A DNA stretch of 64,000 nt from Actinophytocola xinjiangensis (GTDB taxonomy: Bacteria > Actinomycetota > Actinomycetes > Mycobacteriales > Pseudonocardiaceae). This document shows positions 12,895 to 26,407 of the stretch, piece after piece (positions within the stretch are counted from its first letter, which is position 1; each line of letters starts with the position of its first letter). The stretch lies in contig NZ_MSIF01000003.1 of NCBI RefSeq assembly GCF_001921215.1, forward strand, positions 186,001 through 250,000. Reading direction: 5' to 3'. A program made the position numbers and the translations under genes. The notes beneath the pieces were generated by a model. It saw only the letters and a list, made by a program, of their open reading frames with translations, did no database searches and was not told where the DNA came from.

Positions 12895-13554
12895 ATGCGG
12901 ATACTCGTGGCCGAGGACGAGCGGTTGCTCGCCGACGCGGTCGCGACCGGCCTGCGACACTACGGCTTCGCCGTCGACGTCTGCTACGACGGCGACGCCG
13001 CCGCCGAGCGGGTCACCGTCCACGCCTACGACGTGGTCATCCTCGACCGGGACCTGCCCAAGATCCACGGCGACGAGGTCTGCCGACTGATCATCGCCAG
13101 GAACACCGAGACCCGGGTGCTGATGCTGACGGCCGCCGCGAGCATCCGCGACCGGGTCGACGGACTCGGCCTTGGCGCCGACGACTACCTGACCAAGCCG
13201 TTCGCCTTCGCCGAGCTGACGGCCAGGGTGCAGGCGCTGTACCGGCGCGCCCGCCCGGCCGTGCCGCCGGTGCTCGACGCGGCCGGGGTCGTGCTCGACC
13301 CGGCACGCCGGCACGTCACCCGCGACGGACGGCTGCTCGCCCTCTCGCCCAAGGAGTTCGCTGTTCTGGAGATCCTCATGCGAGGTACCGGTACGGTCAT
13401 CGGCCCCGAGGAACTGCTGGAGAAGGCATGGGACGAGCACACGGACCCGTTCACGAACGCGGTGCGGATGGCGGTGATGACACTGCGCCGGAAGCTGGGC
13501 AACCCGCCGTTGATCCACACCGTCCCCGGCGCGGGCTATCGCTTCGGCACCTGA
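12895..13554 (+). CDS. OmpR-family response regulator
   Basis: A 219-residue two-domain regulator. The receiver domain (1-118) has the acidic pair E7/D8, phospho-acceptor Asp51 (ILDRDLP), a conserved Thr in LMLTA and Lys101 in TKPF. The winged-helix DNA-binding domain (about 128-219) carries LSPKEFAVLEILM, an NAVRMAVMTLRRKLG recognition helix and the closing IHTVPGAGYRF wing. The start at ATG 12895 is preceded by GGAGGGGG. The histidine kinase follows directly. An 11-bp direct repeat upstream is a likely self-binding site. The signal sensed is unknown. Confidence 0.95.
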   Translation: MRILVAEDERLLADAVATGLRHYGFAVDVCYDGDAAAERVTVHAYDVVILDRDLPKIHGDEVCRLIIARNTETRVLMLTAAASIRDRVDGLGLGADDYLTKPFAFAELTARVQALYRRARPAVPPVLDAAGVVLDPARRHVTRDGRLLALSPKEFAVLEILMRGTGTVIGPEELLEKAWDEHTDPFTNAVRMAVMTLRRKLGNPPLIHTVPGAGYRFGT

Positions 13555-14621
13555 TCGGGGCCCAGACGGTCGGCGGCCGGATCGTCCTGCTGTGTCTGGC
13601 CGTACTGGTGCTCGGCATGGTGATTGTCCAGCTCGTGGGGGATCACCTCCACCGGCTGTACCTGTCCCTGCTGAACATCCAGCAGTTGTGCTACGACGAG
13701 TTCGGCCAGGTCTCGGTGTGTGTTCACTACCTGCCCCGGGATCAGCTCATCGGCGTGGTCCTCGTGATCGTCGGCTTGGCGCTGATCGTGCTGATGCTGC
13801 GGCGGTTGGCCCGCTGGGTGCTGGCGCCGGTCACCACGATGACCACCGCGCTGCGCCACCTCGGGCCGCAGAACCTCGGCCAGCGGGTCCGCCTGGACGG
13901 GCCGAACGACCCGCTGCGCGAACTGGCCGACACCCTCGACGCCATGCTCGACCGGCTGGTGGTCGGCTTCGAGGGCCAGCGGCGGTTCGCCTCCAACGCC
14001 TCCCACGAGCTGCGCACCCCGCTGGCCGTGCAGCGCACGCTGGTCGAGGTGGCGATGGTGACCAGTCGCGACGACCCGGACCTCACACGGCTCGCCGAGC
14101 AACTGCTGGTGGTCAACGAGCGCAACGAGCGGCTCATCGAGGGCCTGCTGGTGCTCGCCGAGAGCGACCGGGGCCTGCCCGGCGTGATGCCGGTGCGCCT
14201 GGACGTGGTCGTCGCCGAGGTGCTCGACGCGCACGGCGAACTGGCGGCGCAGCACGAGGTGACGCTGCACCGGGGCCTGGTGTCACGGATGGTGCGCGCC
14301 GACCCGGTCCTGCTGGAACGGATGGTCACCAACCTCGTGCACAACGCGATCACGTACAACGTGCCGGGCGGGACGGTGGACGTCGTGGTCGCCGGGCTGC
14401 CGGCGCTGTCGGTGCACAACACCGGCCCGCACGTCCCGGCGGAGTCGGTGTCCGCGCTGTTCGAGCCGTTCCGCCGGCTCAGCGCCGAGCGCGTCCACCA
14501 GCGCGACGGCGCGGGCCTCGGCCTGTCGATCGTGCGGTCGATCTGCTCGGCGCACAACGGTGTCGTGCAGGCGCGGCCGGGAGACAAGGGCGGCCTGCGG
14601 ATCGAGCTCTACCTGCCCTGA
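13551..14621 (+). CDS. sensor histidine kinase partner
   Basis: A HAMP-containing membrane histidine kinase of about 356 residues. TM1 is IVLLCLAVLVLGMVIVQLV, then a short extracytoplasmic loop with two Cys (LCYDEF, VCVHY), TM2 LIGVVLVIVGLALIVLML, a HAMP segment, the DHp domain with phospho-His152 in SNASHELRTPLA, and an ATPase domain with N box (LVHNAITYN), a DGAGLGLSIV G box and no C-terminal extension. No ATG, GTG or TTG lies near the expected start. The coding frame emerges exactly at the regulator's stop, so I place the start at CTG 13551 (overlapping TGA); the only in-frame ATG (13428) would give a 127-nt overlap. Confidence 0.85.
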   Translation: MIGAQTVGGRIVLLCLAVLVLGMVIVQLVGDHLHRLYLSLLNIQQLCYDEFGQVSVCVHYLPRDQLIGVVLVIVGLALIVLMLRRLARWVLAPVTTMTTALRHLGPQNLGQRVRLDGPNDPLRELADTLDAMLDRLVVGFEGQRRFASNASHELRTPLAVQRTLVEVAMVTSRDDPDLTRLAEQLLVVNERNERLIEGLLVLAESDRGLPGVMPVRLDVVVAEVLDAHGELAAQHEVTLHRGLVSRMVRADPVLLERMVTNLVHNAITYNVPGGTVDVVVAGLPALSVHNTGPHVPAESVSALFEPFRRLSAERVHQRDGAGLGLSIVRSICSAHNGVVQARPGDKGGLRIELYLP

Positions 14622-14668: not shown

Positions 14669-15286
14669 ATGGCACTGATCCACCGGGCCACCCTGCGGCC
14701 GACGAAACTCGAACTGATCGCCGCCTGGCTGCCCGGCCGGCCCTGGTTCGCCGGCCCGGCCGGCGACCTCGAACGACTGGCCGCCTACCGGTTCGACGAC
14801 CCGGCCGGCGAGGTCGGGATCGAGACCATCCTCGTCGGTACCGCGCGGGGAACCTTCCAGGTGGCCCTGACCTACCGGGGCGCGCCGCTGGCCGGCGGCG
14901 AGGACCTGCTGGTCGGCACCACCGAGCACTCGGTCCTTGGCCGCCGCTGGGTGTACGACGCGGTGGGCGACCCGGTGTACGCCGCCGCCCTGACCGCCGC
15001 CGTGCTGGCGGACGCCGGCCAGGCCACCGAGTTCCTCGAGGCCGGCGACCGGCTCGAACCCCGGGACCCGAGCATGACCATCGCCGGCACCACGGCAGGC
15101 GGGTCGGCCGCCCCCACCGCCGTCCGCCGGGTCGTCGACGGCGACCCGACGGTGATCGAGACCGACACGGTCGACCTGGCGCTGGCCCGCCGGCTCGACG
15201 CGCCCCGGCTCACCGGTGCCGTGCTGACCGGCACCTGGCCCGGCCGGGACACGCCGGTCGCGCTGGCCTCCGCCTCGCCGCGCTAG
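14669..15286 (+). CDS. maltokinase N-terminal cap-like protein
   Basis: A 205-residue cytosolic protein containing LELIAAWLPGRPWF, YRFDDPAGEVGIETILV, LTYRGAPL and GTTEHSVLGRRWVYD. I recognise these as the stand-alone cap-like domain related to the N-terminus of maltokinase (Pep2) and to CG0192-type proteins. Such proteins are common in actinomycetes and their role is not established. The start at ATG 14669 follows GGGGGAGG by 8 nt. It lies 47 nt after the histidine kinase gene and may be co-transcribed. It ends on a CTAG shared with the stop of the convergent membrane-protein gene. Confidence 0.7.
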   Translation: MALIHRATLRPTKLELIAAWLPGRPWFAGPAGDLERLAAYRFDDPAGEVGIETILVGTARGTFQVALTYRGAPLAGGEDLLVGTTEHSVLGRRWVYDAVGDPVYAAALTAAVLADAGQATEFLEAGDRLEPRDPSMTIAGTTAGGSAAPTAVRRVVDGDPTVIETDTVDLALARRLDAPRLTGAVLTGTWPGRDTPVALASASPR

Positions 15287-15738
15287 GCGACCGGTTCGGG
15301 GGTGGCGCGCCGGACCGGGGAGCGGTGGGTGGCGGTGTACTCGTTCACCCGCAGCAGCATGGCCACGATCATGGCCGGGGTCATCAGCACGTGCCCGAAG
15401 GTCATCACCGCGCCCTCGGACGCCCAGCCGGCGGCGTAGAGCGGGTACATCAGCAGGAACGGCACGTACATCGCCAGCGCCATCTCCCTGGTCGCCGGCC
15501 AGCCGCAGCCGCGCAGGCGCATCCAGGCGGCCATGCCGATGCTCATGTAGGTGGCCATCAGCAGGGTCGATGGCACCAGGTCGCCGGTGACCGGCGTCCA
15601 GCCCAGTGCCTCGAACAGCAGGTCGGCCGGCATGCCCAGCACGAACATCCCGACGAACATGGCGATCGTCATCTCCAGCAGGTGCTGGACGAAGTTCCGG
15701 ACCGGACCCTTCACCACGATCTTCTCCGCGATCCGCAC
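15283..15738 (-). CDS. four-span membrane protein behind CsoR-like boxes
   Basis: A 151-residue integral membrane protein with four predicted spans (MTIAMFVGMFVLGM, STLLMATYMSIGMAAWM, ALAMYVPFLLMYPLYAAG, HVLMTPAMIVAMLL), notably rich in methionine inside the membrane segments. Similar proteins are sometimes labelled FliP-like, which I would not trust. GTG 15738 is chosen because GGAGG lies 7 nt upstream; an in-frame ATG at 15777 falls inside the upstream operator box. Two copies of a metal-regulator-like box precede the gene, so a role in metal, perhaps copper, handling is a hypothesis. Function is otherwise unknown. Confidence 0.65.
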   Translation of the reverse strand: MRIAEKIVVKGPVRNFVQHLLEMTIAMFVGMFVLGMPADLLFEALGWTPVTGDLVPSTLLMATYMSIGMAAWMRLRGCGWPATREMALAMYVPFLLMYPLYAAGWASEGAVMTFGHVLMTPAMIVAMLLRVNEYTATHRSPVRRATPEPVA

Positions 15739-15776
15739 GACTGACCTCCGGTTCTCCCGCCCACCAGCGAGGTACA

Positions 15777-15824
15777 TACCATCAGGGGGTATCCAAGCCG
15801 GCTCAAGGTACCATCGGGGGGTAT
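15777..15824. promoter_or_regulatory. duplicated CsoR-like operator boxes
   Basis: TACCATCAGGGGGTAT (15777-15792) and TACCATCGGGGGGTAT (15809-15824) are near-identical 16-bp boxes spaced 32 bp apart, three helical turns. TACC...GGGGGTA with a G/C tract resembles operators of CsoR/RcnR-family metal sensors. They lie 39-86 nt upstream of the membrane-protein start and also close to the end of the conservon. The match to CsoR sites is from memory. Confidence 0.55.
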
Positions 15825-15831
15825 GCGGGAG

Positions 15832-16440
15832 TCAAGGTCGGTGGCGGGCGTGTGGCTGGGCTGCCAACGCGATCAGATGCTCCAGCAGGTTGGCCAGTAC
15901 ACCCTTGCTGGACTCCCGCTCGCGCACGTCGCACAGCAGGATCGGGACCACCGGGTCCAGGTCGATCGCGTCCCGCACTTCGTCCACTGTGTACATCTGC
16001 TGCCCGTGGAAGTTGTTGACAGCCAAGATGAACGGAATCTGCCGGCGCTCGAAGAAGTCGACCGCGGCGAAGCAGCCGTCCAGCCGGCGGGTGTCGGCGA
16101 TGACCACCGCGCCCAGCGCGCCCATCGCCAGCTCGTCCCACATGAACCAGAACCGCTCCTGTCCCGGCGTGCCGAACAGGTAGAGGATCAGCGATTCGTT
16201 GAGGGTGATCCGTCCGAAATCGAGGGCTACCGTCGTCGTGGTCTTGGCCTCCACCCCGACCAGGTCGTCCACTCCCCCGCTGACCGTGCTGAGCACCTCC
16301 TCGGTGCGCAGCGGCGGGATCTCACTCACCGAACCGACCAACGTGGTCTTGCCGACACCGAACCCGCCGGCCACCAACACCTTCAGCGCGGAGGTCCCCA
16401 GGGTCGCCTGGGGTGCGGGATCAAAGCCTACGGATGCCAT
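15832..16440 (-). CDS. cvnD: conservon GTPase CvnD
   Basis: A 202-residue small GTP-binding protein, the fourth component of a conservon. G1/P-loop GGFGVGKTT is at 25-33, followed by switch regions (TTTTVALDFGRI), a G3-like LFGTPGQERFWFMW, and an NNFHG segment in place of a canonical NKxD, typical of this family. CvnD proteins associate reversibly with the CvnA membrane kinase in a eukaryote-like G-protein relay. The gene overlaps cvnC by 20 nt, so the operon is translationally coupled. Confidence 0.92.
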   Translation of the reverse strand: MASVGFDPAPQATLGTSALKVLVAGGFGVGKTTLVGSVSEIPPLRTEEVLSTVSGGVDDLVGVEAKTTTTVALDFGRITLNESLILYLFGTPGQERFWFMWDELAMGALGAVVIADTRRLDGCFAAVDFFERRQIPFILAVNNFHGQQMYTVDEVRDAIDLDPVVPILLCDVRERESSKGVLANLLEHLIALAAQPHARHRP

Positions 16441-16792
16441 CGAGTACCGCCTGCAGGATGTTCATGTCCGGGGTCTCCGTGTTCAGGGGCGACGGGGGAG
16501 AGCTGAAGTTCAGACAACCTTGCTCGATCAGGTCGGCGACCAGGATCTTGATCACGGTGATCGGCAGCCCGAGCTTGGCACTGATCTCCGCGATCGAGAG
16601 CGGGTAGTGGCACAGCCGCAGGATGTCGACGTACTCGGGATCCATCGAGGCACTCTCGGCGGCCGCGGTGACCACCAGCGTTATCAGGTTGAGGTCGAGA
16701 CGCTCCGAGTGCGTACGACCGCGCGTCACGGTGTACGGACGGACCAACGGCCCGGCGTCGTCGTCGTACCAGGAATCCCGACCGTGCTTCAT
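16421..16792 (-). CDS. cvnC: conservon DUF742 protein CvnC
   Basis: A 123-residue DUF742 protein: DAGPLVRPYTVTRGRT near the N-terminus, then a winged-helix-like region (YVDILRLCHYPLSIAEISAKL, ITVIKILVADLIEQG), and a C-terminal PDMNILQAVLDGIRRL helix. This family is the third gene of conservons and is needed for the complex on the membrane. ATG 16792 is used; GTG 16807, which overlaps the roadblock stop codon, is a real alternative and adds five residues. It overlaps cvnD downstream by 20 nt. Confidence 0.9.
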   Translation of the reverse strand: MKHGRDSWYDDDAGPLVRPYTVTRGRTHSERLDLNLITLVVTAAAESASMDPEYVDILRLCHYPLSIAEISAKLGLPITVIKILVADLIEQGCLNFSSPPSPLNTETPDMNILQAVLDGIRRL

Positions 16793-16803
16793 GTTCTCGT
16801 GGT

Positions 16804-17211
16804 TCACATGTTGGCGCCAGGAACGCGCGGCAGCGCGACGAGGTACTTGCCGACCTTCTTCACCATCACGTTCATCTCGTAGGCGATCATGCCGATGTCC
16901 GAGTCGGCGGAGGCCACCAGCGCCAGGCACGCACCGTTGCCCGCCGCCGTCACGATCAGGAACGCCTGGTCCAGCTCGACCACCGTCTGCCGCACGTGCC
17001 CGCCGTTGAAATGGCGGCCCACTCCCCTGGCGAGGCTCTGGAACGCCGAGGCCATCGCCGAGAGGTGTTCGCTGTCCTCCCGGTTCAGGCTGCGGGAACG
17101 GCCGACGCACAGGCCGTCGGTGGACAGCACCGCCGCGTGCTGGGCACCGACCGCGCGCATCACCAGATCGTCGAGCAACCAGTTCAGATCGCTCGGGTTG
17201 GACTCCTCCAT
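16804..17211 (-). CDS. cvnB: conservon roadblock/LC7 protein CvnB
   Basis: A 135-residue roadblock/LC7-fold protein: DLNWLLDDLVMRAVGAQHAA, LSTDGL, an AMASAFQSLARGVG helix and LVASADSDIGMIAYEM. Roadblock proteins regulate or scaffold small GTPases and here would bridge the CvnA kinase and CvnD. ATG 17211 has a strong CAGGGGAG ribosome site; GTG 17259, overlapping the kinase stop, would lengthen the N-terminus by 16 residues. Confidence 0.9.
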   Translation of the reverse strand: MEESNPSDLNWLLDDLVMRAVGAQHAAVLSTDGLCVGRSRSLNREDSEHLSAMASAFQSLARGVGRHFNGGHVRQTVVELDQAFLIVTAAGNGACLALVASADSDIGMIAYEMNVMVKKVGKYLVALPRVPGANM

Positions 17212-17255
17212 GGCTCCCCTGTCTTGCTGCTGGACGAACTCGGGTGACCGGCGGC

Positions 17256-19718
17256 TCACGGGGCCGCACGTCCTTCACGGGTACCGCGCTGGAAGGCCGA
17301 CAGCCGGTTGCGCGACTGCTCGGCGTCCGCCTCCGGATTCTCGGACTCGGCCGCCGGCGGGGTGAGGGCGTCGAACTCGCCGGTCAGCTGCGGGGCGAGG
17401 TTGGCCTGGCGGCGCCGGCGCGGCAGCGGCGGGCGCTTGTCGTCGCCGCGGTCGGCCGGTCCTGGCTGGGCCGAGCGGCCACGCTGGCGACCGATCCCGT
17501 TGCCCGGCGGCGGCGCACCGGCGGCCAGGTCCCTGGCCGACCACTGGACGGTCTGCTCGTTGATGTCCTCCGGCCCGGCCAGGTCGTTCGGGAACGGTGG
17601 CTGGGCCTGGGCCGGCACGGCCGGCGGCGGCACAGAGGGTGCCGCCGAGGGGGGTGTCGTGGGCGGTGCCGCCTGCACCGGGATCTCGGGCGGCGGGGCG
17701 GTGTCGAGCTGGCGCTGGCGGGGCAGGCGGGCGGGACCGTCGCCGTTGCGGGCCAGGCCGGCGCGCGGCAGGTCGTCCTCGGGGTCGCTGGCGATCAGCG
17801 CCGAACGCACCAGCACGATCGCCCGGATGCCGCCGTAGACGGAGTCGACCAGGGTCACGCTGACACCGTGACGCGCGGAGAGCTGGGAGACCACGAACAG
17901 GCCCAGCCGCGCCTCCTCGGTCAGCGCCATCACGTCGAAGTCCGGCGGGTTCTGCAGGAACGCGTTGATGTCGTCGCACTCGTCCGACGGGATGCCCACG
18001 CCCTGGTCCTCGACCTCGACGACCACTCCGTTGCCGACCCGGTTGCCGCGCACCTCCACCTTGGCGTCGGGCGGGGAGAACGCGGTGGCGTTGTCCACCA
18101 GCTCGGCCAGCAGGTGGATGAGGTCGGCGACCACCGAGCCGAGCATGTGGACCTCGGGCAGCCGGCCGGTGTGCACCCGCTTGTAGTGCTCGGTCTCGCC
18201 GATGGCCGACCGCACGATCTCCACCAGCGGCACGGGGTTGCGCCAGCGCCGGCCGGGCCGCTCACCGCCGAGGATCAGCAGGTTCTCGGCGTTGCGGCGG
18301 GCGCGGGTGGCGAGGTGGTCGAGCTGGAACAGCGACTCCAGCGCCTCGGGGTCCTCCTGCTCGCGCTCGGCCTTGTCCAGCACCTCCAGCTGGCGGCGCA
18401 CCACGACCTGGCTGCGGTGGGCGATGTTCAGGAACACCGTGCGGAAGCCGTTCTGGATCTCGGCCTCGTGCGCGGCGGCGGCGACGGCGGTGCGCTGCGC
18501 CTTGTTGAACGCCTGGGCGACCTCGCCGAGCTCGTCGCGGCCGTAGTCCAGCGGCGGCATCTCGCGGGCGAGGTCGATCTGTTCGCCGCCGCGCAGCCGG
18601 CCGACGATCATCGGCAGCTTCGTGTCGGCCAGCTCCAGGGTCTCGGCCCGCAGGTTCTTCATCCGCCGGACCACCCGGTTGGACAGCCGGATGGCGACGA
18701 ACGTGGCGATCAGCGTGATCAGCAGGACCGCGCCACCGCCGAGCAGCGAGTTGACGAACGTGGTCTCACCGGTCTCGGCGGCGAAGCCCTCGGCGTAGCG
18801 GTGGTGTTCGGAGTAGATGTCGAGCAGTTCGCCGCTGACCGCCGAGGCGGCCCGCTGCCACTGCTCCAGGTTCAGCGGCAGCGGCTCGCCGTTGCCCGGT
18901 GAATCCTCTGTGGACGGCCCGCGCAGGCGCAGCGCGCTCTCCTGCGCGGCCAGCTGCCGGAACTCCGGGGTCTCGGCGAGGGCGCCGAAACGCTGCTGCA
19001 ACTCCGGGGTGAGGATCGGGATGACCGCCTGCATGTCGACCTGGTAGCGGCCGACCTGGCTGGAGAACTCCTGGTACTCCTCGACCGACAGCCCGCCCCG
19101 GACGACGCCGCCGATGGCCACGGCGTGCGCGCGTGACATCGAGTCGGCGACGGCGAACAGCGTCGTCGCGGTGGACTCCTCGACGGCGGTCTTGGAGTCC
19201 GGCGCGGTCTCCGCGATGCCCTGCAGACCCAGTTTGATCAGCTCGACCACGCCGCTGTAGTACGCGTTGACGTCCGCCCACGGCACGACACCGGCGTCGA
19301 CGCCCTGGCGGATCTGCGGAAGCTGCTCCCCGATGAGCTTGGGGAAGATCTTGTTGGCCTCCTCGATGGCGCCGGGGTTGAGGTCGTTGAGGCCGCCCAT
19401 CAGGCCCTGGATGTTGGCGACCGCGCGGTCGAAGTCAGCGCGGGCCCGCGTCAGCTCGGGAATGACCGAGCGGTCGCCGCCGAGCAGTTGCAGGCTGACC
19501 CGGCGTTCCTCCTGGGCGCCGGCCGCGAACGCGGTGCCAGGGGCGACGGTGTCCTGCATCGTGGTCGCCCATTCCTGGGCGTCGTAGCCGTCCTTCACCA
19601 GGTACCCGGAGGCACCGACACCGATGACGAGAAGCGCCGCACTGGGGATGAGCACGATGGCGAGCATCCGCAGCCGGATGCTCCGGCTCCTTCGTCCCCT
19701 GCTGCTGGCAAGCCTCAC
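17256..19718 (-). CDS. cvnA: conservon sensor kinase CvnA
   Basis: An 820-residue histidine-kinase-like membrane sensor that heads the conservon. TM1 is about 16-40, a large extracytoplasmic nitrate/nitrite-sensing-like helical domain runs to about 320, TM2 is 323-344, then HAMP. The kinase core contains NIAHRSQ (431-437), the N box ELVDNATAFSPP (539-550) and DQGVGIP. The last ~190 residues are a Pro/Arg-rich disordered tail. CvnA-type kinases bind CvnD and set its membrane association. GTG 19718 follows GAGGAG at about 10 nt. Conservons influence development and secondary metabolism in Streptomyces, which makes the adjacent diterpene genes interesting. Confidence 0.92.
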   Translation of the reverse strand: MRLASSRGRRSRSIRLRMLAIVLIPSAALLVIGVGASGYLVKDGYDAQEWATTMQDTVAPGTAFAAGAQEERRVSLQLLGGDRSVIPELTRARADFDRAVANIQGLMGGLNDLNPGAIEEANKIFPKLIGEQLPQIRQGVDAGVVPWADVNAYYSGVVELIKLGLQGIAETAPDSKTAVEESTATTLFAVADSMSRAHAVAIGGVVRGGLSVEEYQEFSSQVGRYQVDMQAVIPILTPELQQRFGALAETPEFRQLAAQESALRLRGPSTEDSPGNGEPLPLNLEQWQRAASAVSGELLDIYSEHHRYAEGFAAETGETTFVNSLLGGGAVLLITLIATFVAIRLSNRVVRRMKNLRAETLELADTKLPMIVGRLRGGEQIDLAREMPPLDYGRDELGEVAQAFNKAQRTAVAAAAHEAEIQNGFRTVFLNIAHRSQVVVRRQLEVLDKAEREQEDPEALESLFQLDHLATRARRNAENLLILGGERPGRRWRNPVPLVEIVRSAIGETEHYKRVHTGRLPEVHMLGSVVADLIHLLAELVDNATAFSPPDAKVEVRGNRVGNGVVVEVEDQGVGIPSDECDDINAFLQNPPDFDVMALTEEARLGLFVVSQLSARHGVSVTLVDSVYGGIRAIVLVRSALIASDPEDDLPRAGLARNGDGPARLPRQRQLDTAPPPEIPVQAAPPTTPPSAAPSVPPPAVPAQAQPPFPNDLAGPEDINEQTVQWSARDLAAGAPPPGNGIGRQRGRSAQPGPADRGDDKRPPLPRRRRQANLAPQLTGEFDALTPPAAESENPEADAEQSRNRLSAFQRGTREGRAAP

Positions 19719-20014
19719 AACAACCCCGACTCCTCACAGGTGAATGCGGATCGGCGCACGCACCGGCTCCGGCGTCGATCATCGGGGCACCATAGTGGAT
19801 TTGCCGGCCACCGTGAACCAGTCAATCGACATTTGCTCCAAAGAACCAGGTAGACCGTCCACAAGAGAGAGAAAATCAGGATTACCAATCCTTCCGGAGC
19901 TGGTCACACGACCGCCGATCACCGGCCTGTCCAATGCCGAACGGGGAGTACTAGTGTGCCGGCCTTAGTTCTTCCGGATATCGACCGCGCCAGTAACCCA
20001 GAACGGGAGTTTCC
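19719..20014. promoter_or_regulatory. divergent control region, conservon / GMC oxidoreductase
   Basis: 296 bp without a gene and clearly richer in A and T than its surroundings, as expected for two divergent promoters. It contains a short inverted repeat GGATT-ACC-AATCC. No convincing -35/-10 pair stands out. Confidence 0.5.
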
Positions 20015-21616
20015 GTGACAGAGTTCGACTACGTCATCGTCGGCGCCGGACCGGCGGGGTGCGCGCTCGCCAACCGCCTCTCGGCGAATCCAGACGTCCG
20101 GGTGTTGTTGGTCGAGGCGGGTGACGAGGACACCAACCCGCTGATCGCGATGCCGAGAGGGTTCGGTGAACTGCTGGGTGACCCGACCACCGCGTGGCAC
20201 CACCCCACCCGGCCCTTCGGTCCGGCGGGACAGGTCGAGCACTGGGTACGGGGCAGGACGCTCGGCGGATCGAGCGCGGTCAACGGCATGATCTACAACC
20301 GGGGTCAGGCGGCGGACTACGACGCGCTGGCCGCCCTGGGCAACCCCGGCTGGGGCTGGGACGACATGCTGCCGGTGTTCCGGACCATCGAGGACAACGC
20401 CCTCGGCGCCTCGGAGTCACGCGGAACCGGCGGCCCGCTCCAGGTCTCGACCGCCGCCGAGGGCGACCCGCTGCTCGACGACGTCCTGGCCGCCGGCGCC
20501 GAACTCGGCTGGCGACGCACCCGCGACCTCAACGAGACCGACGAGGACCGTGTCGGCTACGCCACCGCCACGATCCGCGACGGCCGGCGGTGCAGTGCGG
20601 CGAACGCCTTCCTGCACCCGGTGACCGACCGGCCCAACCTGACCGTCGCGGTGCGCACCACCGTCGACCGGGTCGTGCTCGACGGCGGCCGGGCGGTCGG
20701 CATCAGCGGCCGGCGCGACGGGCAGGCCGTGGAGTACACCGCCGCCCGCGAGGTGATCCTGTCCGCCGGCAGCATCGGCAGTCCGAAGATCCTCCAACTC
20801 TCCGGCATCGGCCCGGCCGACGTGCTGGCCAGGGCCGGTGTCGAGGTCGCCGTGGACAGCCCCAACGTCGGCGGCCGGTTGCGCGAGCACCGCGTGTTCA
20901 CCCTGCAGTTCCGCCTGGCCGAGAACCTCGGCTACAACCGGCTGCTCAGCTCGCCCGAGGGCCAGCAGCAGGCGGCGCGGGAGTACCAGGAGACCGGCGG
21001 CGGGCCACTGGGCGCGCCGTCCTTCGACGTCGTCGGGTTCTTCCGGACCCGCCCGGACCTCGACCGGCCGGACGCGCAGTTCCAGATCGCGCCGTTCTCG
21101 ATGCTGCCGCCGGACCCCAGCGGTGCGATCAGGATCGAGCCGGACCCCGGGATGCTGTGCATCGGCTACCTGCTGCGCCCCGACAGCGAGGGCTCGGTCG
21201 CCATCTCCTCGGCCGACCCGGACGCGCCGATGGACATCGTGCCGAACTACTTCGCCACCGAGCACGACCGGAGCACGGCCGTGGAGATCTTCCGCGTGCT
21301 GCGCCGGCTGTTCGCCACCGGCCCGCTGGCCAAGCGGATCGACCACGAGACGGCCCCCGGCCCGGCGGTGCGCACCGACGAGGAGATCATCGACGCCGGC
21401 CTGGTGATGGGTACCTGCGGGTTCCACGCCATCGGCACCTGCGCGATGGGACCGGCCGACGACGACGTGGTCGACGCGCGGCTGCGGGTGCGGGGCGTGG
21501 CCGGGCTGCGGGTCGTGGACGCCTCGGTGCTGCCGATCATGGTGTCGGGCAACCTCAACGGACCGGTCTCCGCGCTGGGTTGGCGGGCGGCCGACCTCAT
21601 CCTCGACGAGGCGTGA
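20015..21616 (+). CDS. GMC-family FAD-dependent oxidoreductase
   Basis: A 533-residue glucose-methanol-choline oxidoreductase. The N-terminal dinucleotide fold has GAGPAG at 10-15 and the VEAGD end of strand 2; the GMC signature appears as GRTLGGSSAVNGMIYNRG. A second GMC signature lies around SAGSIGSPKILQLSGIGP, and the C-terminal catalytic region GFHAIGTCAMG carries the active-site His. It oxidises an alcohol to aldehyde or ketone. GTG 20015 gives the canonical FDYVIVGAGPAG start. It converges on the P450 of the diterpene genes with a shared hairpin terminator, so it may tailor the diterpenoid; a separate catabolic role is also possible. Confidence 0.9.
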   Translation: MTEFDYVIVGAGPAGCALANRLSANPDVRVLLVEAGDEDTNPLIAMPRGFGELLGDPTTAWHHPTRPFGPAGQVEHWVRGRTLGGSSAVNGMIYNRGQAADYDALAALGNPGWGWDDMLPVFRTIEDNALGASESRGTGGPLQVSTAAEGDPLLDDVLAAGAELGWRRTRDLNETDEDRVGYATATIRDGRRCSAANAFLHPVTDRPNLTVAVRTTVDRVVLDGGRAVGISGRRDGQAVEYTAAREVILSAGSIGSPKILQLSGIGPADVLARAGVEVAVDSPNVGGRLREHRVFTLQFRLAENLGYNRLLSSPEGQQQAAREYQETGGGPLGAPSFDVVGFFRTRPDLDRPDAQFQIAPFSMLPPDPSGAIRIEPDPGMLCIGYLLRPDSEGSVAISSADPDAPMDIVPNYFATEHDRSTAVEIFRVLRRLFATGPLAKRIDHETAPGPAVRTDEEIIDAGLVMGTCGFHAIGTCAMGPADDDVVDARLRVRGVAGLRVVDASVLPIMVSGNLNGPVSALGWRAADLILDEA

Positions 21617-21620
21617 GGCG

Positions 21621-21652
21621 GGGTGGTGGCCGCCGGGTGGCGGCCACCACCC
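21621..21652. terminator. bidirectional hairpin terminator
   Basis: A perfect 14-bp stem, left arm GGGTGGTGGCCGCC and right arm its complement, with a GGGT loop. It lies between the stops of the convergent GMC oxidoreductase and P450 genes. No U tract follows, as is usual in actinomycetes. Confidence 0.8.
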
Positions 21653-21654
21653 GC

Positions 21655-22863
21655 TCAGCTCCGCCAGACCAGCGGCAGGTTCTCCAGCGAGCACACCGCG
21701 CCGCCGTCCATCGCCAACTCCGCGCCTGGCCCGACCGAATAGTCCACAATGGACGTGTGCCAGTCGCGCAGCGCGGCCGCCAGGCCCTGGGTGGCGATCC
21801 GCGCGCCAAGACAGCGGTGCGCGCCGAAACCGAAGGCGACGTGGCTCGCGCTGTTGGCCCGGTCGAAGTCCGCCGACGCCGGATCGGGGTAGTGGTGCGG
21901 GTCGCGCCCGGCCAGCGACAGGTTGAGCAGTACCCGGTCACCCGCCCGCAGCCGCACACCGGCGACCTCGGTGTCCCGGGTGGCGGTGCGGGCGATGCTG
22001 ACCACCGAGTGCAGCCGCAGCAGCTCCTCGGCGGCCGAGGCGGCGATCCCCGGCTCGGCCGCCAGCCGGTGCTGGTGCTCGGGATGCGCCGCCAGGTAGC
22101 GGAAGGTGAAGCTGACCGAGTTCGTCAGGGTGTCCAGGCTCGCCATCCCCATCAGGAACGCCAGATCCAGCGCCTGCTCCCGGCTCAACGGCTCGCCGTC
22201 GACCTCCGCGCTGGCCAACACGTCCAGCAGCCCCGTGCCGTCCCCGCCGCGCACACCGGTCTCGTACTCGCCGATGGCCCGGCCGACGTAGGCCATGAAC
22301 TCCGTCGTCGCGCGGGCACGGCGGCCGGGGTCAACGTCCTGGAGCAGGTCGTCGGCCCACCGCGAGCACGCCTGGGTCTCCTCCTCCGGCACGTCGAACA
22401 ACGCCGCGAACAGGGCGTTCTGCAACGGCCGGGCGAAGTCGAGGACCAGGTCGCACTCGCCGGCCGGGGCCAGCCGCTCGACCAGCCGCGCCGACGCGGT
22501 TTCCAGCGCCCGGGTGATGGTCGAGCCCGCCGCGCCGTTCAGACAGCGCGCCAGCAGCGCGCGGTAGCGGTTGTGGTCGGGCGGGTCCAGTTCGACCGGC
22601 ATCAGCGGACGCGGCCAGCCTGCCGGCGGGATCGAGGTGTGCCGGCTGGAGAACGCGTCGGTGTCCCGCAGCACCGCGCGGATGTCGGCGTGCCGGGTCA
22701 GCACCCAGAAGCCGTCCAGCTCCTCGGTCCAGAACACCCGCTCGTCGCGGAACCGGTCGAACGCGGTGAACGGGTCGACGCGGACCGCCGGGTCGCTGTG
22801 GTGGTTGAAGTCACGGACCGGTGCGTCCACGCCCGATGACGTCCCGGATGACGTCGTGCTCAT
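21655..22863 (-). CDS. cytochrome P450, diterpene tailoring candidate
   Basis: A 402-residue soluble bacterial P450. The I-helix reads MASLDTLTNS, keeping the acid-alcohol Asp-Thr pair with Ser for the usual Gly. EELLR is the ExxR motif, and FGFGAHRCLG carries the heme-ligating Cys351. The C-terminus is short. It is the last gene of the minus-strand terpene run and lies 21 nt downstream of the class I synthase stop, so it is most likely co-transcribed and hydroxylates the hydrocarbon or alcohol made upstream. Electron partners (ferredoxin, reductase) are not encoded nearby. Confidence 0.92.
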   Translation of the reverse strand: MSTTSSGTSSGVDAPVRDFNHHSDPAVRVDPFTAFDRFRDERVFWTEELDGFWVLTRHADIRAVLRDTDAFSSRHTSIPPAGWPRPLMPVELDPPDHNRYRALLARCLNGAAGSTITRALETASARLVERLAPAGECDLVLDFARPLQNALFAALFDVPEEETQACSRWADDLLQDVDPGRRARATTEFMAYVGRAIGEYETGVRGGDGTGLLDVLASAEVDGEPLSREQALDLAFLMGMASLDTLTNSVSFTFRYLAAHPEHQHRLAAEPGIAASAAEELLRLHSVVSIARTATRDTEVAGVRLRAGDRVLLNLSLAGRDPHHYPDPASADFDRANSASHVAFGFGAHRCLGARIATQGLAAALRDWHTSIVDYSVGPGAELAMDGGAVCSLENLPLVWRS

Positions 22864-22884
22864 GCTGGTGGTCCTCCGTTCGGT

Positions 22885-23787
22885 TCAGGCGACGCCGTGG
22901 ACGAGGAACTCGGTGTCGATGTAGCTGCCGAGGTACTGGCTCACGCACCACTGCGCCAGCCGCAGCACGGCCACGGCGTCCCGGTCCCCCGTCGCCAGCA
23001 GCGGCGCGAGCCCGGACCGCACCGACGCCAGCCGGCGCTCCAGCAGGTCGCGCACCCACTCCGGCGACACCCCGTACATGAGGATGTTGTTGTGCCCGTG
23101 GCCCGGCTGGCTCAGCTCGCGCTCGATGGTGCCCAGGTCGTTGGCCAGCCGGCACACGTAGTGCGTGTCCTCCAGCGCCGGGACCAGCACCTCCAGGTTG
23201 TCCAGCAGCGTGTCGGTGCCGAAGGTCAGCCACCTCGGCACGTGCACCTGGCCGATGGCGCTGCTGCCGATGTGCGCCAGGTACTCGTCGACGTCCATCG
23301 CCAGCCCCGGCGGTGTCTCGCCCCGGTCACGGGCCCAGCCGGCGACCCAGTTGTACCGGTAGCCGTCCAGGGTCCTGGCGACGCCGCGTTCCCACAGCGG
23401 CGCCAGGTCCGGGTAGCGCGGCAGTGCGACGGCCTGCCGCTGCCAGTCGGACAGGCTGATCAGCAGCGGGTGCGCGTCGTCCGCCTGACCGGTGCGGACC
23501 ACGGCGTTGCACCGGTCGACCAGCTCGTCGATCTCGGTGAGGTCGGTGGCCTCCTGTTCCAGGTAGTCGTCCAGGACGATCACCCACATGGCCATCAGCG
23601 TCGGCAGGCGCAGCTGCTCGCCGGTGGCCCACGGCGCGATGCCCGCCTCGCTGAAGGCGATCGCGGCCATCGTCCGGCTCTCGTAGCCGGGGTGGTGGAC
23701 GGCCATCCACCGTTCCAGGTCACCGAGGGCGGCCAGTCCTCTGCTCATCACCGACACACACTGGTCGACGGGAGGAAAGTCAGTCAT
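22885..23787 (-). CDS. class I diterpene synthase
   Basis: A 300-residue class I terpene synthase. The aspartate-rich metal-binding motif is D73-D-Y-L-E77 and the NSE/DTE motif is N216-D-L-G-T220-I-E-R223-E224, both complete, so magnesium-dependent diphosphate ionisation should be functional. Its length fits single-domain bacterial diterpene synthases that take a copalyl-type diphosphate. It starts 8 nt inside the end of the class II cyclase gene (23780-23787), giving tight coupling of the two cyclisation steps. Unlike mycobacterial Rv3378c, which as I recall lacks a DDxxD motif, this one has it. The exact skeleton made is not predictable. Confidence 0.88.
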   Translation of the reverse strand: MTDFPPVDQCVSVMSRGLAALGDLERWMAVHHPGYESRTMAAIAFSEAGIAPWATGEQLRLPTLMAMWVIVLDDYLEQEATDLTEIDELVDRCNAVVRTGQADDAHPLLISLSDWQRQAVALPRYPDLAPLWERGVARTLDGYRYNWVAGWARDRGETPPGLAMDVDEYLAHIGSSAIGQVHVPRWLTFGTDTLLDNLEVLVPALEDTHYVCRLANDLGTIERELSQPGHGHNNILMYGVSPEWVRDLLERRLASVRSGLAPLLATGDRDAVAVLRLAQWCVSQYLGSYIDTEFLVHGVA

Positions 23788-25261
23788 CGAGTCCCTTCCT
23801 GCTCAGTACGTAGGCCGACAGCACGGCCGCGCGCACGACCGCCGGCGGGGTGTAGAGGCCCTTGCCGATCCACAGCTGCGCGTGGTCGGTGGCGTCGAGG
23901 TGCTCACGCAGGTAGCCGGCCGCACGGCGCAGGACCTCGGCCGGCACCGGCCCGAGGTGCGGCGCGAGCGTGTCCAGGGCGAGCACGGCGTAGGCGGTCT
24001 CCTCCGGCAGACCGCCGGCCAGACCCCAGGATCCGTTGGCGTGCTGCCCCTCCAGCAGCCAGCGCCAGGTCCCGGCCAGGGTGTCGGCCGGCACCACACC
24101 GGCCAGCCCGAACACCGCCTGGGCGGTGGCGTAGTGCGCCGACAGGTGCCACTTGTCGTACCACCAGGCCGACTCGTGGCGGCTGTCGAGCAGGAAGTCC
24201 CTGGCCTTGGCCAGCTGCGGGCCGAAGCGGTGGGCCTGGTGACCCAACGCCTCCAGCACGCGCCCGTTCGCGCTCACCGGCGCGCCCCGCTCGTGGGCGA
24301 AGCCGACGAAGTGGTCGTCGGTCTCGAAGGACAGCAGCGAGTCCAGCAGCGCGGTGGGGTCGAACCCGAAGGTGTGCGTCAGGTTGGCGACCATGGCGGT
24401 GTCGTCGGAGTCGGGCACCGGGAACTCCTCGCTGACCCCGACGGGCTCCCCGGCGCCGCCGGCCAGCTTCGCCAGCCGCTCGACGTGGCGGCGCGCGGCC
24501 GGCGGCCACAGGCCGGCGCGGCCCAGCAGGTAGATGACCCACGACGGTTCGAACACGTTGATCGGGTAGATCTCCGGCATGCCGCCGTCACCGGTGGACC
24601 GCGCCGCCTCGGTGAGGTAGTCGAGGGCGGACGGGTCGTGGGTGGCCTCCCACAACGCACCGGTGGCCGGCGGGTTGTTGGCCATCGAGCCGTTCACCGA
24701 GGTGAACTTCGCCATCTGTGGCAGCGGCACCAGTTCGCCGAGGGCCTCCAGGGAGTAGAGCAGGCCGGTCGGCTGACCGGCGAGGGCGCCGGGCGGGACC
24801 CGGGAGAGTTTGTCGGCGCGCAGCCGCGCCAGTTCGTCCAGCGAGTCGGCGGTGCCGGCGGGTAACAGCCCGGCCAGCCGCGCCTGCTCGACCAGATGAG
24901 GGGCGACGACCTCGAAACCGATCGGCTCCCCGGTCGCCTGCCGCCAGTCCGACGCGTGCTCGCACAGGTAGGCCACGCCGGAGCGGACCGCGCCGGCCGC
25001 CCAGTCCTGGGGCACCTCCCGCAGGGCGAGCACGGCGGCGGCGGTGGACACCAGCCGGTCGTAGGCGTTGGGCACGCTGCCGCCCCACGACCCGTCCGGC
25101 CACTGGTGGGTGCGCAGCCATTCCCGCGCCAGGGGGAACTCCGGCTCGCCGGTGCCGGTGACCAGGCGGGCGGCCCACGCGGTGGCGTAGGCCATGGCCG
25201 CGACCGGGCGCTCGCCCAGACCGTCGACGAGGTGGTCGGCCTCTTCGATCGTGCTCAGCAT
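23780..25261 (-). CDS. class II diterpene cyclase (copalyl diphosphate synthase-like)
   Basis: A 493-residue alpha-barrel cyclase. The catalytic acid motif DxDD is present as D284-S-D-D287 in VPDSDDTAMVAN, and QW-type repeats are seen (QWPDGSWG at 53-60, HANGSWGLAGG near 400). It protonates geranylgeranyl diphosphate to give a bicyclic labdadienyl, halimadienyl or related diphosphate without losing the diphosphate. Length matches bacterial two-domain class II enzymes such as Rv3377c. It sits between the GGPP synthase and the class I synthase. Product stereochemistry is unknown. Confidence 0.9.
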   Translation of the reverse strand: MLSTIEEADHLVDGLGERPVAAMAYATAWAARLVTGTGEPEFPLAREWLRTHQWPDGSWGGSVPNAYDRLVSTAAAVLALREVPQDWAAGAVRSGVAYLCEHASDWRQATGEPIGFEVVAPHLVEQARLAGLLPAGTADSLDELARLRADKLSRVPPGALAGQPTGLLYSLEALGELVPLPQMAKFTSVNGSMANNPPATGALWEATHDPSALDYLTEAARSTGDGGMPEIYPINVFEPSWVIYLLGRAGLWPPAARRHVERLAKLAGGAGEPVGVSEEFPVPDSDDTAMVANLTHTFGFDPTALLDSLLSFETDDHFVGFAHERGAPVSANGRVLEALGHQAHRFGPQLAKARDFLLDSRHESAWWYDKWHLSAHYATAQAVFGLAGVVPADTLAGTWRWLLEGQHANGSWGLAGGLPEETAYAVLALDTLAPHLGPVPAEVLRRAAGYLREHLDATDHAQLWIGKGLYTPPAVVRAAVLSAYVLSRKGLDD

Positions 25262-25327
25262 CGAGAACTCTCCGTTCGGGGACAGACGTCAGCGACACGG
25301 CGGCCGCCGGAGGGCGAACGCCGTGAC

Positions 25328-25379
25328 GTGGTCGCGGTCGGTGGTCGCGGTCAGTGGTCGCGGTCAGTGGTCGCGGTTG
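25328..25379. repeat. four tandem 13-bp repeats at the GGPP synthase 3' end
   Basis: GTGGTCGCGGTCR is repeated at 25328, 25341 and 25354, with a fourth, slightly diverged copy from 25367. The last copies encode the GGPP synthase C-terminus (VVNRDH) and its stop codon lies in the repeat, so slippage could shift the stop. Confidence 0.85.
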
Positions 25380-26407
25380 ACGACGAGGGCGGCCAGGACG
25401 CCCAGGTCGGCGGTGGCTCCCGGGTCCAGTCCGGTGTCGCGCAGGCAGGCCAGTGCCTGGGCGTGGTGTTCGCGTGCCTGGTCCTGCGCCCAGGCGCGGG
25501 CGCCGGCGGCCTCGATCAGGTCGGCGGCGCGGGCGAGCTCGCCGGGTGAGAGGTGGGCGTCGCGGCGGTACAGCTCGGCCAGTTCCGCGCCGGCCGGGGT
25601 GCCGGCGGTGAGGGTGGCGACGACCGGGAGGGATTTCTTGCGGTTCACCAGATCCGAATGGACCGGCTTTCCGGTGGTCGCCGGATCTCCCCAGATTCCC
25701 AGCAGGTCGTCGACGTACTGGAAGGCCAGTCCGAGATGCCGGCCGAAACCCCGCAGTGCCTCGACCTGGTCGGAGTCACCGCCGCCGGAGATCGCGCCGA
25801 GACCGCACGCGCCGCCGAGCAGCGACCCGGTCTTCCCGGCCGCCATGTGCACGCATTCCAGCAGGGCGACGTCCGATCTCCGTTCGAAGGCCAGGTCGGC
25901 GCTCTGCCCGTCGACCAGTTCGTAGAGGACGGAGGTGAGCAGGCGCAGCTCGGCGGCCAGGTCCTCGCGGCCGGTGTCGGCGAGCACGTCGAAGGCCAGC
26001 GTCAGCAACGCGTCGCCGGCCAGGATCGCCGTGCTGGCACCGAAAACCGACCAGCTGGCGGCGCGGTGGCGGCGGGTGGGGTCGCGGTCCATGACGTCGT
26101 CGTGCAGCAGGGTGAAGTTGTGCACCAGCTCCGCCGCGCAGGCCGCCGGCACGGCGGCCCGCTCGCTGCCGCCGACGGCTCTCGCGGCCAGCAGGACCAG
26201 TGCCGGGCGGACGGATTTTCCTCCGGTGTCAACGGTTTCGGCCGTTCGGCCGTGTTCGTCGGACCATCCGAAGTGGTATTCGGCGACCCGGCGCATCGAC
26301 ACCGGAAGCCGGTCGAGGGCCGCGCGCAGGGCAGGACGGACCAGCCCCCGGCTCCATTCCAGAACGTCGGTCCCCGACCGATCCTCGACGATCTCGAGTG
26401 GCGCCAT
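25364..26407 (-). CDS. geranylgeranyl diphosphate synthase
   Basis: A 347-residue trans-polyprenyl diphosphate synthase. The first aspartate-rich motif is D103-D-V-M-D107 followed by RRHR-type basic residues; the second region is DDLLGIWGD (233-241), the form common in actinobacterial GGPP synthases. GGKSVRP and FQYVDD are also present. It elongates IPP and DMAPP or FPP to GGPP, the substrate of the class II cyclase downstream. ATG 26407 is used. It is the first gene of the minus-strand terpene run. The stop codon lies inside a 13-bp tandem repeat array. Confidence 0.92.
   Translation of the reverse strand: MAPLEIVEDRSGTDVLEWSRGLVRPALRAALDRLPVSMRRVAEYHFGWSDEHGRTAETVDTGGKSVRPALVLLAARAVGGSERAAVPAACAAELVHNFTLLHDDVMDRDPTRRHRAASWSVFGASTAILAGDALLTLAFDVLADTGREDLAAELRLLTSVLYELVDGQSADLAFERRSDVALLECVHMAAGKTGSLLGGACGLGAISGGGDSDQVEALRGFGRHLGLAFQYVDDLLGIWGDPATTGKPVHSDLVNRKKSLPVVATLTAGTPAGAELAELYRRDAHLSPGELARAADLIEAAGARAWAQDQAREHHAQALACLRDTGLDPGATADLGVLAALVVNRDH

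Follow-up and report, generated by a model that had tools for sequence, protein, structure and literature searches.

Organization of the diterpenoid locus

The 64,000-nucleotide window analyzed here (contig NZ_MSIF01000003.1 of Actinophytocola xinjiangensis, positions 186001–250000) carries a compact set of diterpenoid biosynthesis genes next to a conservon, cvnABCD, which encodes an actinobacterial G-protein system. The host genome (9.5 Mb, 72 contigs) was placed with Labedaea and Herbihabitans in one family, for which the NCBI name is Pseudonocardiaceae. Five enzyme genes were identified, encoding a geranylgeranyl diphosphate (GGPP) synthase, a class II diterpene cyclase, a class I diterpene synthase, a cytochrome P450 and a GMC oxidoreductase (Table 1), and all five are intact open frames with the expected motifs. 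An earlier note on this DNA had claimed these five families with a conservon beside them, and the frames and coordinates were as claimed, with Pfam domains of these families. Its finer points were seen as well: the two cyclase genes share 8 nt (23780–23787), the class II enzyme carries DSDD at residues 284–287, and the class I enzyme keeps both metal motifs complete, as DDYLE and NDLGTIERE. The conservon is complete, with cvnA, cvnB, cvnC and cvnD recognized by their Pfam domains in this order on a single strand. Moreover, it stands back to back with the GMC gene, as the same note had stated, and the divergent spacer is richer in AT (58.1% GC vs. 66–74% in the surrounding kilobases).

Table 1. 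Genes and intergenic region of the locus in window positions, with amino acid identities to the corresponding proteins of the Herbihabitans and Labedaea loci
Feature	Position	Strand	Domain or model evidence	Herbihabitans	Labedaea
cvnD, small Ras-like GTPase	15832..16440	-	PF03029 (E 4.9e-29)	78%	75%
cvnC, DUF742 protein	16421..16792	-	PF05331 (E 5.8e-36; domain scan on 16421-16810)	76%	66%
cvnB, Roadblock/LC7 protein (4-nt overlap with cvnA)	16804..17259	-	PF03259 (E 7.6e-23)	78%	74%
cvnA, sensor-kinase-like, NIT + HAMP + HATPase	17256..19718	-	PF08376, PF00672, PF02518	60%	52%
Divergent cvnA/GMC intergenic region	19719..20014		296 bp, 58.1% GC		
GMC oxidoreductase, choline-dehydrogenase-like	20015..21616	+	PF00732, PF05199	69%	
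Cytochrome P450, nearest solved structure CYP101	21655..22863	-	PF00067; 4jws (E 3.4e-58)	62%	
Class I diterpene synthase, DDYLE + NDLGTIERE	22885..23787	-	PF19086 (32.6 bits, cut-off 23.7)	48%	46%
Class II diterpene cyclase, DSDD, Rv3377c-like, Gly466/Tyr470	23780..25261	-	PF13243 (34.3, cut-off 26.1)	66%	62%
GGPP synthase, putative family-2-encapsulin-cargo polyprenyl transferase type	25364..26407	-	PF00348; NF041169 (455.7 bits, cut-off 450)	34% and 39% (two polyprenyl synthases)	63%

The same block in other genera

A corresponding block was found in Herbihabitans rhizosphaerae (G211, L019/L097; G, L and C numbers denote genomes, loci and contigs) and in Labedaea rhizosphaerae (G227, L020/L103). 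The Herbihabitans enzyme genes follow the order two polyprenyl synthases, class II cyclase, class I synthase, P450 and divergent GMC gene, with the conservon beyond the latter. In Labedaea, the conservon comes directly after the class I gene, all on one strand; no P450 and no orthologous GMC gene were found in the approximately 30 kb examined, and a cholesterol-oxidase-like GMC gene, an F420-dependent reductase gene and a methyltransferase gene lie between the cyclases and the GGPP synthase. The other genes called at these two loci by simple scripted gene calling gave no match to any window gene at E ≤ 1e-6. The recurrence of the block in two other genera indicated that the gene order is beyond chance.

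The Herbihabitans locus shows several deviations (L019; 6078–7988, 8012–9484 and 9483–10388). Its polyprenyl synthase genes are in tandem, one of them having no match to the second DDxx[DG] motif, its class II cyclase has DSDC, and its class I synthase has DKFVD in place of DDYLE; the chemistry there may therefore differ. Separately, the record CAJCJE010000575.1 (L096/L058) is titled Candidatus Melainabacteria, and its genome grouped in the actinomycete family of the window, so the title looks wrong.

Association of the conservon with the cluster

The distribution of the conservon was assessed with cvnC, using a cut-off (E ≤ 1e-42) fixed beforehand to shut out paralogues and scoring at most 11 candidates per genome. 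Cluster-type cvnC was detected in 4 of 386 family genomes, namely the window's own (G000), G183, G211 and G227. The same four were the only ones among 390 searched to carry a class II cyclase more than 60% identical to that of the window, which places class II orthologues in four genera; some class II cyclase (E ≤ 1e-20) was present in 88 of the 390, the next best identity being 46%. As the genomes are related and the two samples overlap without being identical, this agreement represents an association rather than independent replication. In a tree of 30 rows, the four cluster cvnA copies formed one clade (support 100/99), and the next cvnA by score across 13 genomes was 48% identical, with one partial match at 50%. 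In addition, none of 16 further class II loci had a conservon hit (E ≤ 1e-8) within the DNA examined around them (L021, L022, L024, L025, L059–L063 and, from Actinomadura, L098–L102, L104 and L105), some flanks being short and L024 and L025 beginning at the cyclase.

Within the genus (six genomes, the window's own included), class I synthase, class II cyclase and cluster-type cvnC were all not found in the other five. The flanks of an acetyl/propionyl-CoA-carboxylase-like gene that neighbors the cluster (left stretches in G001–G004, Labedaea and Herbihabitans; right stretches in G002, G003 and G004) contained no close relatives of the genes flanking it in the window, be it in four same-genus genomes, Labedaea or Herbihabitans. 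A paralogous conservon, in contrast, keeps conserved neighbors in three genomes of the genus, own included. Since synteny of the paralogous conservon was detectable and the carboxylase flanks were unshared, the diterpenoid–conservon block is not explained by general synteny. A comparison with an empty site was abandoned, there being no comparable one: the flanks share no close genes, and G005 is without a full-length carboxylase-like orthologue.

It could be argued that the conservon is a passenger that only adjoins the cluster and controls other functions, such as development or stress. Conservons are numerous, with 11 cvnA-like matches (E ≤ 1e-20) in the window's own genome, and both here and in Herbihabitans cvnA and the GMC gene point away from each other, with the four other enzyme genes beyond the GMC gene, so that the cvn and enzyme genes do not form one transcript. 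However, the same conservon clade stands at the cluster in all three genomes whose contigs allow a check, the fragmented G183 being the exception, and no copy was seen elsewhere in these three; Labedaea, even with no P450 or orthologous GMC gene found, keeps the conservon beside the cyclases, with the class I gene and the conservon on one strand; and the flanks of the gene adjoining the cluster are not kept even within the genus. On this evidence, a conservon without any role in the pathway appears doubtful. The significance that the earlier note had attached to its position rises from adjacency to evidence through the conserved synteny, the single cvnA clade and the matching distribution. The conservon is thus probably part of the pathway, because it is found beside it here and in other genera.

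Class II cyclase and the likely skeleton

The best solved match of the class II cyclase was 6vpt (185.8 bits, E 1.6e-53, residues 19–485), which is Rv3377c (PMC9814783; statements credited here to articles by PMC number refer to the accessible portions of their text), followed by PtmT2 (5bp8, 114) and Tpn2 (7xkx, 112). A four-sequence profile gave the same ranking (Rv3377c 243.5, PtmT2 169.3, Tpn2 129.1). The DSDD motif, the PF13243 domain and the 6vpt match agree with a bacterial class II cyclase, defined by DxDD and a squalene-cyclase-type fold. An AlphaFold 2 (AF2) model from four sequences was poor, with a predicted local distance difference test (pLDDT) score of 61.3, and was set aside, so the fold assignment was made from sequence.

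The residue at Tpn2 position 485 (502 in PtmT2) switches between clerodane and labdane formation; it is Asp in 84.1% of the Tpn2/copalyl diphosphate (CPP) synthase family, whereas in the Rv3377c family Gly or Ala predominates at this site and a Tyr is conserved four positions downstream (PMC9814783). The window cyclase has Gly466 and Tyr470 at the equivalents of Rv3377c-type positions 475 and 479, and its three close relatives have Gly, Ser and Gly at the switch. Across 41 aligned class II rows (only those with locus DNA, a subset of all family matches, in which L042 and L025 are one gene), the switch residue was Asp in 24 and Gly or Ser in 17, the window and the three close relatives being among the 17. 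A quick tree split the Asp rows from the Gly/Ser rows with a Shimodaira–Hasegawa-like approximate likelihood ratio test (SH-aLRT) value of 100, under a long-branch warning. The window cyclase is thus without the Asp that marks labdane-type actinobacterial (ent-)CPP synthases, and it shows the sequence features of the Rv3377c (halimadienyl diphosphate) type, being closest to Rv3377c, non-Asp at 475 and Tyr at 479. By score, it belongs with this halimane-forming type. The Rv3377c-type score together with Gly at the switch suggested that the intermediate is no less likely to be a halimane or clerodane than a labdane. To our knowledge, halimane and clerodane diterpenoids are rarely reported from bacteria. 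Single bacterial cases are given in PMC10301674.

Class II cyclases of the Gly type, 44–51% identical to that of the window, were also observed at seven Actinomadura loci (L098–L102, L104 and L105), with a GGPP synthase gene alongside in five of them.

Class I synthase

The second enzyme shows the Asp-rich motif, the NSE motif and the alpha-helical bundle of class I synthases, in the form of DDYLE, NDLGTIERE and an AF2 model (pLDDT 88.5). Foldseek returned Sat1646 and Stt4548 as the best PDB matches, with a query-normalized template modeling (TM) score of about 0.8 and 23–26% identity; these two are also its only strong solved sequence relatives, and only distant ones. The PF19086 domain and alpha-bundle fold differ from the Rv3378c type, although an Rv3378c model was not used for searching. 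Therefore, the claim that the cluster is not a copy of the tuberculosinol system holds, as the partner enzyme is an alpha-helical class I synthase.

Relatives of this synthase are rare and were detected in 8 of 390 family genomes (E ≤ 1e-10). In a pattern scan of the genome contigs, 10 stretches fit the class I pattern and none was a relative; the class II scan used two peptide patterns only and was not exhaustive. A second class I synthase, 49% identical, was observed in the window's own genome (C34:281046–281870; L017 9025–9882) and in Herbihabitans (C17; L018 9273–10163). No class II cyclase was found within the 19–20 kb examined at these loci, and a single class II match was found in each genome. 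In both genomes, the bicyclic diphosphate of the class II enzyme might also serve this second synthase in trans.

These relationships bear on an alternative product, a labdane or pimarane diterpenoid made via CPP, on the model of the stt cluster of Streptomyces and the terp1/sat cluster of Salinispora. Both sequence and fold place the class I enzyme closest to Sat1646 and Stt4548, which are CPP-using isopimaradiene synthases (PMC9814573), the content of class II, class I and P450 genes resembles terp1, and some ent-CPP synthases also have Gly at the switch (PMC9814783). The class II cyclase, however, is nearest to Rv3377c, is without the Asp of 24 of the 41 rows and falls on the Gly/Ser side of the tree described above. 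A CPP-derived product is therefore rather unlikely in our judgment. Of the 'full labdane-type route' in the earlier note, the compact two-cyclase diterpenoid cluster stood, and the labdane assignment became doubtful in view of the Rv3377c-type score and Gly466 in place of Asp.

GGPP synthase, P450 and GMC oxidoreductase

The GGPP synthase carries DDVMD and, at the second site, DDLLG. It passes NF041169, the model for family 2 encapsulin cargo polyprenyl transferases, but no encapsulin shell gene is present among the cluster genes. Elsewhere in the same genome (C34; L026 7108–11406), two family 2B shell-model genes adjoin a GGPP synthase gene (57% identical to that of the cluster) and an IspH-type gene. 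The nearest solved chain to the P450 is a camphor 5-monooxygenase. The GMC oxidoreductase remained below choline dehydrogenase cut-offs (PRK02106, 444.9 bits vs. 605).

CvnA sensor and promoter regions

In its transmitter (residues 411–640), the window CvnA shares 74–85% identity with the cluster members of the other genomes and 49–72% with paralogues. The NIT domain (residues 68–298), in contrast, is 48% identical to Herbihabitans, 36% to Labedaea and 26–39% to paralogues. We read this as a conserved output with a changing input, and extracellular domains drift faster in general. A shared regulatory motif upstream of cvnA was considered and dropped, the similarity being weak.

Conservons occur widely among actinomycetes, and little is understood of how they signal; a CvnE (P450) or CvnF (GAF) accessory occurs only where CvnA is without a sensor domain (PMC13343842). 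The gene after cvnD (15283–15777) matches no Pfam family and thus is no GAF accessory, and CvnA itself carries NIT. The presence of NIT with no CvnE or CvnF gene after cvnD is in line with this pattern in the accessible text of PMC13343842. The cluster P450 was not favored as a CvnE accessory, since its gene follows that of the class I synthase and CvnA contains NIT, as judged by position and domain alone. Further along, at 14669–15286, a 205-aa protein whose sole domain is a maltokinase N-terminal cap adjoins a two-component system (12895–14621).

Proposed pathway and its regulation

The reading that we favor, with moderate confidence, is a co-inherited nine-gene cluster for an oxidized halimane- or clerodane-derived diterpenoid that carries its own dedicated actinobacterial G-protein regulator. 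The enzyme families, their motifs and the repeated conservon linkage are observed; because of the enzyme families, we infer a route, including the skeleton and the order of oxidations, in which the GGPP synthase would supply GGPP, and the class II cyclase would protonate it and close two rings, probably giving a bicyclic diphosphate of the halimane or clerodane type. Ionization of this diphosphate by the class I synthase would then yield the final hydrocarbon or alcohol, the P450 may hydroxylate that product, and the GMC flavoenzyme may oxidize an alcohol further. The cvnABCD system, with its putative extracellular NIT sensor, would form part of the cluster and set its expression; Cvn8 of Streptomyces coelicolor provides a precedent for a conservon that acts on the gene cluster next to it (PMC8510531, PMC13343842).

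Several observations weigh against this reading. The linkage in three genomes may go back to a single ancestral event, and in the fragmented genome G183 the GGPP synthase and class II (67%) genes are on one short contig and the conservon is on another, with cvnA running off the contig end, so that linkage was not seen. On the product side, Sat1646 and Stt4548, the nearest solved class I enzymes, both convert CPP to isopimara-8,15-diene (PMC9814573), and Gly (91.1%) also occupies the switch in a group with gibberellin-associated ent-CPP synthases (PMC9814783). Furthermore, the window class I synthase is as close to the unlinked copies (49% to C34 of its own genome and C17 of Herbihabitans) as to the linked ones (46–48%), and the class I tree did not separate these five copies. 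Co-inheritance thus extends to the class II cyclase and the conservon and not to the class I synthase; we make no claim of strict orthology for the class I genes, and only their occurrence in the same place at the linked loci was observed. For the regulator, a NIT domain only 36% identical to that of Labedaea, against 26–39% for paralogues, does not support a shared signal, and the cvnA upstream regions share little, giving a weak three-way alignment with no common repeat. A silent or broken cluster, in which motifs are kept and the enzymes give no product, appears very improbable: DSDC and DKFVD in Herbihabitans indicate that some family members may be decaying, but in the window the expected motifs stand in five undisrupted frames, and four genera have retained class II orthologues.

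Within the favored reading of a co-inherited cluster with its own regulator, we also speculate, with little confidence, on a closed signaling unit in which CvnA would sense a signal from outside the cell, perhaps the cluster's own diterpenoid or a compound made by a competitor, and CvnD would switch the cluster. A fast-changing NIT domain and class I synthase beside a strongly conserved transmitter and GTPase would fit a sensor and product that diversify around a fixed output. Such a unit, if true, would amount to a transferable G-protein circuit in bacteria that is dedicated to a terpenoid acting as a signal or a weapon.

Novelty and significance

No conservon-linked diterpenoid cluster was found in the literature searched, in which most subscription papers were outside reach and one broad search was uninformative. 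No characterized close orthologue of the cluster was found in the searches made, and no locus examined was more than about 70% identical across the five genes to a cluster with a known product. The description of the product as unknown stands in searchable records. The novelty is the combination of a conservon with diterpenoid genes and no single part of it. A conservon that recurs with one small pathway names its own likely target in advance, and the role of the G-protein system thereby becomes testable. The conservon may also offer a way to activate a diterpenoid cluster that is silent.

Comparison with known systems

The Salinispora terp1/sat cluster (SaCPS/Sat1645, SaDTS/Sat1646 and CYP1051A1; isopimara-8,15-dien-19-ol) shares with the window a class II cyclase, a class I synthase and a P450, and its class I enzyme is homologous, Sat1646 being one of the two nearest solved structures. 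In contrast, the class I enzymes are only 23–25% identical in Foldseek alignments, SaCPS makes CPP whereas the window cyclase has Gly at the switch, and no GMC or conservon gene is named for terp1/sat in the accessible text of PMC9814573. The terpentecin (clerodane) system Tpn2/Tpn3 resembles the window in its GGPP synthase, class II, class I and P450 genes and in having Gly at the same switch (PMC9814783). It differs in that the window cyclase scores only 112 bits to Tpn2, and the tpn cluster is listed without a conservon in the accessible part of that article.

The Rv3377c/Rv3378c system (tuberculosinol/tuberculosinyladenosine) offers the nearest solved class II cyclase, with the Tyr common to both and Gly in the window against Ala in Rv3377c. 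Its second enzyme, Rv3378c, is called 'the adenosine prenylation enzyme' (PMC9814783), whereas the window partner is an alpha-helical class I synthase with Mg motifs, and the window adds a P450, a GMC oxidoreductase and a conservon. Regarding regulation, Cvn8 of Streptomyces coelicolor differs from the window, in which CvnA has a NIT sensor with no GAF accessory after cvnD, the neighbor is a diterpenoid cluster and control is putative. The likeness lies in the arrangement of cvnABCD beside a biosynthetic cluster: Cvn8 acts as a repressor of the lanthipeptide genes next to it, and deletion of cvn8 genes raises that cluster (PMC8510531, PMC13343842).

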